Program-made: the position numbers and the translations under genes
Shown: one piece after another, positions 13,908-15,540 of the stretch
How positions within the stretch are numbered: position 1 is the stretch's first letter
Layout of the letters: each line of letters starts with the position of its first letter
From: Haloplasmataceae bacterium
GTDB taxonomy: Bacteria; Bacillota_I; Bacilli_A; Haloplasmatales; Haloplasmataceae
Reading direction: 5' to 3'
Assembly: GCA_029240795.1 (NCBI GenBank)
Contig: JARDZP010000003.1
Location: forward strand, 1 to 64,000
Length of the DNA: 64,000 bases
The notes under the pieces: generated by a model
Database searches by the model: none
What the model saw: the letters and a program-made list of their open reading frames with translations, nothing else
What the model was told of the DNA's origin: nothing

Positions 13908-15062
13908 ATGGAAATTAAAAATTATAAACAATCGTTATTTTGTACTGTAACTATTCTATTTTGGTTTTCAACATATGCATATGTACCGATATTTACTAAT
14001 TATTTAAACAGTTTAGGTGCATCATCCAAAATGGTAGGATTAATTGCGGGTTCATATGGTTTTACACAAATGATCTTAAGAATTCCTTTAGGAATATTAT
14101 CTGATAAAATTCAAAGAAGAAAATTATTTATTATTTTAGGTTTATTGTTTACATTAATAAGTGGTGCTGGTTTACTATTCACTAGAAATAATCTTTATTT
14201 GATTTTATTATTTAGAGCAATAGCTGGTGTAGCTGCCTCAACTTGGGTTAGTTTCACAGTTCTTTATACCAGTTATTATAATAAGAGTCATACTTCAAAA
14301 GCAATAGGAACAATAAACTTCTTTAATAATACGGGACAAATGCTTGCGATGTTAATTGGTGGACTTGCCGTTCAATTGTTTAGTTGGCATGCATCATTTA
14401 CATTATCAACTATTTCAGGATTAATTGGTTTACTATTATCTTTTTTTATTATCGAAAATAATGATGAAAACAAAGAAAAAATTACGTTAAAAGGTGTATT
14501 AAGTGTTATATCTAATCATAAGCTAATTCTCGCAACCTTATTTGCGATCATTGCCCAAATGATTACATTCGCAACTGCTTTTAGTTTTACTACAAAACAT
14601 GCAATTAATATTGGTGTTACAAATTTTGAACTTGGTATCCTTTCGTTTGCATCAACTTTGCCAACAGCTATTGCGGCATTAATTGGCGGTAGATATTTGG
14701 GTCAAAAGTTTGGTGAAAAACGTATGATCATTATAGGTTTTATACTATTAGGAATTTTTACTTTGGTAATACCATTTACAAATACATTTACTTCGTTGTT
14801 AATAACACAATTTATATCTGGAATAGGACGAGGATTATCTTTTCCACTTTTAATGTCTTTAAGTATAAAAGACATTAATCCTAATAAACAGTCAACAGCA
14901 ATGGGAATTTTTCAAGCCTTATATGGAATTGGGATGACAATAGGCCCAATTATAATGGGATACTTAATCGATAATATTTCACTTATGGTTGGATTTGTAA
15001 GTTTTGGCTTGTTAGGTTGTATAACTTCATTGATGTTTTATTTAACAACAAAGAAAATATAA
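13908..15062 (+). CDS. MFS transporter
   Basis: 384 aa with 12 predicted helices. The loop between helices 2 and 3 reads GILSDKIQRRK, the classic MFS motif A, and the second half has a related GRYLGQKFGEKR. The protein belongs to the drug/efflux-like branch judging by length and motif A, but its substrate is unknown. AAAAGGAG precedes ATG. The gene is single, convergent with the Gly/Phe repeat protein across a small hairpin. Confidence 0.82.
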   Translation: MEIKNYKQSLFCTVTILFWFSTYAYVPIFTNYLNSLGASSKMVGLIAGSYGFTQMILRIPLGILSDKIQRRKLFIILGLLFTLISGAGLLFTRNNLYLILLFRAIAGVAASTWVSFTVLYTSYYNKSHTSKAIGTINFFNNTGQMLAMLIGGLAVQLFSWHASFTLSTISGLIGLLLSFFIIENNDENKEKITLKGVLSVISNHKLILATLFAIIAQMITFATAFSFTTKHAINIGVTNFELGILSFASTLPTAIAALIGGRYLGQKFGEKRMIIIGFILLGIFTLVIPFTNTFTSLLITQFISGIGRGLSFPLLMSLSIKDINPNKQSTAMGIFQALYGIGMTIGPIIMGYLIDNISLMVGFVSFGLLGCITSLMFYLTTKKI

Positions 15063-15064
15063 AA

Positions 15065-15082
15065 GACCATCAAATGATGGTC
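15065..15082. terminator. Shared terminator hairpin of two convergent genes
   Basis: GACCATCA (15065-15072) and TGATGGTC (15075-15082). The T-run is better on the minus strand (TCTTTTATA), favouring the gene at 15094-15378. Confidence 0.65.
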
Positions 15083-15093
15083 CTTAAATTATA

Positions 15094-15378
15094 TTAATAC
15101 CATGGACGTGGACGTCTACGTGGGAAGAATGGAAAGAAAGGAAAGAAAGGGAAAAATGGGAAGAATGGAAAGAATGGAAAGAAGGGGAATCTACCAGGGC
15201 GACCAAAGCCAAAACCACCGAATCCACCAGGGCGACCAAAGCCAAAACCACCGAATCCACCAGGGCGACCAAAGCCCATACCACCGAATCCACCAGGGCC
15301 ACCAAAGCCCATACCACCGAATCCACCAGGGCCACCAAAGCCCATAGAAATTCTATTATCAGGATAATATTCTTGCAT
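15094..15378 (-). CDS. Low-complexity Gly/Phe and Phe-Phe-Pro repeat protein
   Basis: 94 aa. GGAGG then TTAAAT precede ATG, so this strand is the coding one. After MQEYYPDNRISM come five 11-residue units of the form GFGxPGGFGGx, where x changes from G/M to R/F along the array. Then follows FP plus seven consecutive FFP triplets, and the protein ends RRRPRPWY. No signal peptide or membrane helix is evident. Glycine-aromatic repeats suggest a structural, coat-like or self-associating protein. I know no family with the FFP array, and function is unknown. Confidence 0.7.
   Translation of the reverse strand: MQEYYPDNRISMGFGGPGGFGGMGFGGPGGFGGMGFGRPGGFGGFGFGRPGGFGGFGFGRPGRFPFFPFFPFFPFFPFFPFFPFFPRRRPRPWY
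15194..15344. repeat. Five 33-bp tandem repeats inside the Gly/Phe gene
   Basis: CCAGGG recurs at 15194, 15227, 15260, 15293 and 15326, a strict 33-base period (11 codons). Neighbouring units differ by a few bases. A 9-base period array encoding the FFP triplets follows at about 15122-15185. Confidence 0.9.
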
Positions 15379-15540
15379 ATTTAACCTCCGTAAATTATTG
15401 AAAAGTATATGAAAAAATAGGTAATTATATAGCTTTTCAGTTTAATTTATGCGAAAAAAATAAATATGAATGGGCGGAGTATTTGATTATAAAAATAATT
15501 TGGAGAAAATATTAAAAAAGGAAATTAAAAGGTTGAATAT

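Follow-up and report, generated by a model that had tools for sequence, protein, structure and literature searches.

What would a bacterium do with a 94-residue protein built of Gly/Phe units and Phe-Phe-Pro triplets, and is such a sequence a protein at all? The open reading frame raising these questions lies in the window, the whole 64,000-nucleotide stretch of DNA analysed here (contig C91 of a host genome of 2.67 Mb that is 86% complete). The preliminary description had reported a 94-residue product with a strong ribosome site, FP plus seven FFP repeats followed by an Arg/Pro/Trp/Tyr tail, and regular 33 bp and 9 bp DNA repeats, and each of these was confirmed, the DNA repeats by Tandem Repeats Finder (Table 1). 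Five 11-residue units had also been counted; four are complete and the fifth is truncated where FP begins. The full translation (MQEYYPDNRISMGFGGPGGFGGMGFGGPGGFGGMGFGRPGGFGGFGFGRPGGFGGFGFGRPGRFPFFPFFPFFPFFPFFPFFPFFPRRRPRPWY) has the layout MQEYYPDNRIS-[MGFGGPGGFGG]x2-MGFGRPGGFGG-FGFGRPGGFGG-FGFGRPGRF-P(FFP)x7-RRRPRPWY. It contains 29 Gly, 26 Phe, 16 Pro, and 9 Arg among its 94 residues, with a single Ser, has a calculated pI of ~11.7, and carries no recognizable signal peptide or sorting motif. A single-sequence AlphaFold2 model had no fold (mean pLDDT 51, pTM 0.13), by a method that gives poor models for any orphan protein. In its present form the protein is not yet described.

Table 1 Coordinates of the window gene, its signals and repeats, and the second Gly/Phe protein of the host.
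Feature	Position	Strand	Description
94-aa ORF	15094..15378	-	ATG start; 11-aa head, Gly/Phe 11-residue repeats, FP(FFP)7, RRRPRPWY tail
33-bp tandem repeat	15187..15346	-	4.8 copies, 96% match; GFG[G/R]PGGFGG[M/F] units (Tandem Repeats Finder)
9-bp tandem repeat	15121..15183	-	7.0 copies, 87% match; FFP array (Tandem Repeats Finder)
Ribosome-binding site region ACGGAGGTTAAAT	15379..15391	-	Read directly, before ATG
Putative sigma-E-type promoter ATA-N16-CATATACT	15404..15430	-	Post-hoc consensus match, 26-52 nt upstream of ATG
Intrinsic-terminator-like hairpin and T-tract	15062..15085	-	10 stem pairs, directly after stop
Second Gly/Phe-Tyr/Pro protein	G000:C161:26314-26604 (= L313:6315-6608)		97 aa, apparently monocistronic

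The ORF is a real coding gene in the stated frame. Its GC content is 49% compared with 29% in the window, owing to its Gly and Pro codons. The seven FFP DNA units are of four types, which require at least four substitutions, and all of these are synonymous in the ORF frame while the other five frames give varied peptides; the simulated probability that all four changes would be silent was 0.001-0.005. The 33-bp units look recently amplified because they are nearly identical, and their few differences alter residues (G to R, M to F). A strong Shine-Dalgarno site (ACGGAGGTTAAATATG) precedes the ORF, and the terminator-like hairpin follows it, as one of a kind of which the hairpin scan alone expects ~1 by chance per 800 bp. 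The gene is separated by 162 bp from a divergent Sua5 gene, faces an MFS transporter gene in convergent orientation, and looks like a single-gene transcription unit. No sporulation gene is among its neighbours (MFS transporter, Sua5, YetF). Tandem repeats easily remain open, two other frames also hold ORFs of 81-84 aa, and genomes of the family lack a homologue, all of which would fit a tandem DNA repeat that stays open by accident. We consider this highly improbable given the ribosome site and terminator, the synonymous-only differences of the FFP array in the ORF frame and no other, a similar protein elsewhere in the host genome, and look-alike proteins in other genera.

Searches of Pfam, NCBIfam, PHROGs, and PDB gave no match to the window protein; a Keratin_2_head match at E about 6 was noise. 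Nothing was returned by tblastn against plasmids and phages, with sensitivity limited by the BLAST low-complexity filter. There was no homologue among 60 relatives, where two weak matches (L002, L003) were unrelated, and the FFP pattern was absent from ~390 genomes of the class and phylum. The Sua5 neighbourhood in the closest relative (G005, 63% identical) contained no such gene. According to the preliminary description, lack of a homologue in sister strains would count against the gene, and in part that is what we found, with no counterpart in the 7 other spore-gene-bearing genomes of the same family, none of which is of the same genus. That the other family members lack it may point to a lineage-specific gene or to high turnover. 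The same description knew of no family with an FFP array. This holds for the curated libraries and for the searched open literature, where the FFPFFP string returned nothing relevant, but not for genomes, since FFP-array proteins are present in Gottfriedia, Thermincola, Bacillus sp. OV166, Desulfosporosinus, and unrelated phages.

We scanned public species genomes for runs of three consecutive FFP triplets and recovered at least 114 stretches, most of which were fortuitous frames opposite genes rich in Lys/Glu or belonged to dispersed repeats, as in Kamptonema. Filtering for a start codon and a five-base Shine-Dalgarno match left ten ORFs among the matches listed. Seven of these ten consisted of F/P/G/Y/R/W to at least 77% and came from Gottfriedia acidiceleris, two Thermincola ferriacetica MAGs, Bacillus sp. 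OV166 (three copies), and Desulfosporosinus sp. FKB. Gottfriedia, Thermincola, Bacillus, and Desulfosporosinus form endospores, and thus all seven composition-matching ORFs among the matches listed belong to endospore-forming lineages. The remaining three, also among the matches listed, had at most 43% F/P/G/Y/R/W, look spurious, and have hosts that are not spore-formers. An FFP array in Pelosinus (L119) was excluded from the count because its start site is unclear. The uncharacterised T. ferriacetica proteins (L031, L073) share with the window protein GGFGGFGGFKKF followed by P(FFP)6 in exactly the same register, but have a Tyr-rich head and GFGG units after the array as well. A (PGYGGY)n tandem-repeat protein, part of it masked as N, lies directly upstream of one of these FFP genes (L031:6186-6525). 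In Kamptonema sp. UHCC 0994, a dispersed DNA repeat (...STKLADSIPFFPFFPFFP) was found on many contigs (L043, L045, L077, L100, L106, L118, L133, L134) and looks like a repeat element rather than a gene.

Among the matches listed, the closest in layout to the window protein was the uncharacterised protein of G. acidiceleris with its orthologues (L072, L291-L303). Both have a short polar head, GFGRPG units, an FFRPFFPFFPFF array, and an aromatic tail, in that order, and both are encoded by a single gene with a GGAGG site and of similar length (87-98 aa in Gottfriedia). They differ in the tail, which in Gottfriedia is YCPPGYYCPPPYYY and rich in Tyr/Pro/Cys compared with RRRPRPWY in the window protein; the Gottfriedia CPPGYYCPPPYYY tail is absent from the latter, and the Gottfriedia GFG units contain His. 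The Gottfriedia protein was found in 12/19 genomes of its family. Its orthologues had dN/dS values of 0.02-0.23, which is strong purifying selection, and differed in how many GFGRP and FFP/FRP units they carry, always in frame. In two of them (L299, L301) the F/P array was largely swapped for PFFGGLATGALLAG or similar, a segment of the same kind, by our comparison, as in a second Gly/Phe protein of the host described below. Further matches in the order of Gottfriedia (L316-L319) were unrelated or wrong-frame repeats. All 11 of the 11 Gottfriedia upstream regions read contained ACCTTCC-N8-10-GTCC[TA]GCATANTTT[GA], equivalent to AC-N17-CATANNNT[A/G], which we take to fit the sigma-K consensus. 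This conserved sigma-K-type promoter makes the Gottfriedia family a good candidate for late mother-cell genes of the coat or exosporium. Alignment of the window and Gottfriedia proteins gave a shuffle-test z of 9.3, a value that repeats can yield by convergence. The resemblance may indeed be convergent, because the Gottfriedia genome was not among the phmmer matches of the window protein at E<=0.01. We therefore treat the other FFP/GFG proteins as alike in build, with common descent unproven.

Phe/Pro arrays are also widespread in phages, and we found no description of them. Several viral contigs (L138:609-1610, L158, L170:7932-8876, L184, L181, and others) encode proteins of ~290-360 aa with FN3-like domains, a long (PFFPPFFPFFP)n array, and a Cys/Gly-rich end. 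One phage FFP-array protein matched phrog_3995 (tail protein, 4e-4), and in L140, L153, and L189 a Hint/intein-like stretch (CVDGDTLILTSEGPKPARKIKVGDKL...) comes after the array. These proteins share long Phe/Pro arrays with the window protein, but differ in their length, folded N-terminal domains, tail-protein context, and lack of GFG units; the FN3-like domain before the array is a phage feature absent from the window protein, which in 94 aa holds repeats only. The longer phage arrays, along with the small, basic, and hydrophobic character of the window protein, might suggest an antimicrobial peptide or a cargo protein of a mobile element or phage. Such a role is very unlikely, as secretion, processing, and immunity genes are absent nearby, the phage FFP proteins carry their FN3-like domains and use another register (P-F-F-P-P), and there was no PHROGs, phage, or plasmid match.

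By gene content alone, the host is genetically an endospore-former. This assignment is based on SpoIVA, found in all eight genomes (the host and seven others of its family), on a SigK that scores over the curated cut-off, and on an adjacent sigma-factor pair on contig C64, which we infer to be SigE and SigG. A codon-pattern search of the host genome for GFGxPG recovered one further such gene, on contig C161. Its product (MNIDFYEENLDQFDSPDERIRPGLGFGGFGSGFGFLPGLGFGRPGLGLGRRFGFPFPFLAGLAAGALLTPRYPYPPYYYPYPYPQYYYPYYYPYPYY) has an acidic head (...PDERIRPGLGFGG..GFGRPG..), a hydrophobic stretch of small residues, and a tail of Tyr/Pro, has no FFP array, and had no library match. It aligned to the window protein through PD[EN]RI and GFGRPG with a score of 111 compared with a shuffle maximum of 98, and it aligned strongly to the Gottfriedia protein L301 (z 9.8). 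Elsewhere in the window (20361-49811), a long cluster resembles one for uptake and breakdown of an acidic polysaccharide, with genes that read as alginate/heparinase-like lyases, an ABC transporter, sugar-acid kinases, an aldolase, and IclR-type regulators.

We take the putative promoter of the window gene to fit the sigma-E consensus; it differs in type from that of Gottfriedia. The pattern had 4 matches in the 64 kb on both strands where 4.3 were expected, and the match at the window gene is the only one of the 4 outside a gene. With spacings of 15-17 allowed, 2/57 upstream regions in the window matched. Of 1000 shuffles of the window gene's own upstream region, 14 matched. Because it was sought after the sequence was seen, the match gives weak support.

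Taken with the gene's coding evidence, these data lead us to propose that the window protein is probably an intrinsically disordered structural component of the endospore coat or of another spore surface layer. An adhesive building block of the outer shell of the spore is the most likely role because similar small proteins occur in other spore-forming bacteria. A coat or aggregating role had already been called possible, and it gains indirect support from the spore-forming host, from look-alikes confined to spore-formers among the matches listed, and from mother-cell-type promoters. We weighed two vegetative roles against it. In the first, a self-associating condensate or RNA-binding protein, the Gly/Phe/Arg units would act like FG or RGG sequences in gathering cytoplasmic proteins or RNA, and the basic tail would bind nucleic acid; such a role would be compatible with the pI and the Arg and Phe contents given above, with the kinship of GFGRPG to RG/FG motifs, and with the missing signal peptide. 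We regard this as unlikely: well-formed look-alike ORFs were found only in spore-formers among the matches listed, the Gottfriedia tails are rich in Tyr/Pro/Cys rather than Arg and their promoter is sigma-K-type, and the profile libraries detected no RNA-binding domain. An envelope or secreted surface protein (adhesin or matrix), with the FFP array in or on the membrane, seems just as doubtful. The array is the most hydrophobic stretch of the protein (mean hydropathy 1.41 over 19 residues) and relatives have a hydrophobic segment of small residues in the corresponding position (GGLATGALLAG, FLAGLAAGALL), but a signal peptide and sorting motif are absent, Pro at every third residue would break a membrane helix, and a hydropathy of 1.4 falls short of the customary 1.6 threshold.

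As a spore coat component, the window protein would be made from a gene transcribed alone in the mother cell during sporulation from the putative sigma-E-type promoter, and without a signal peptide it would remain in the mother-cell cytoplasm. Its Phe (GFG, FFP) and Arg residues could engage in numerous weak contacts of the aromatic and cation-pi kind. The FFP array, a hydrophobic stretch broken by proline, could form no regular helix or sheet. We propose that, owing to these contacts and the unfoldable array, the protein self-condenses and co-condenses with other coat proteins on the SpoIVA scaffold, where it hardens as filler or cement; the repeat count would be free to drift with function kept. 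Expression time, coat location, and self-association are thus what we infer for the protein. CotT is an inner coat protein of B. subtilis that presumably resembles the window protein in its small acidic head ending near Arg, its Pro/aromatic repeats, and its Gly/aromatic stretch, and presumably differs in having Tyr/Pro where the window protein has Phe/Pro. On our best reading, the window protein would work like coat proteins of the CotT/CotG type. Several B. subtilis coat proteins expressed alone self-assemble into fibres, sheets, and stacks (PMC4950064), and work on CotB and CotG has led to the proposal that phase separation of disordered low-complexity regions may act in coat assembly (PMC7821199). 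CotG and CotB have disordered repeat regions like the window protein, but their repeats are of Ser/Lys/Arg and are phosphorylated by CotH (PMC7821199), whereas the window protein has just one Ser. By analogy with the B. subtilis coat proteins, the window protein would condense inside the mother cell and harden on the layer based on SpoIVA.

In a survey of 2650 genomes, Erysipelotrichales were without essentially all Bacillus coat proteins, and many coat-protein losses were inferred on nodes toward the Erysipelotrichales side of the Bacilli; some Erysipelotrichales have been shown to make spores (PMC10868615). The host probably belongs to the Haloplasma/Erysipelotrichia/RF39 part of the Bacilli. 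Orphan low-complexity genes like the window gene are candidates for the missing coat material. A broader idea, which we hold as speculative and on balance doubtful, is that coat building blocks are defined by physical chemistry and not by homology. Lineages that have lost the standard Bacillus coat proteins would then evolve them anew out of Gly/Phe and FFP repeats able to expand and to condense on SpoIVA, and the coat on the Haloplasma/Erysipelotrichia side would consist of orphan low-complexity proteins that evolve fast. Domain libraries miss coat genes of low-complexity repeats, as they missed the window gene. If it encodes a coat component, the window gene would show in one concrete and testable case what such spores contain, and its aromatic/proline repeat, very short and simple, could serve work on protein self-assembly.
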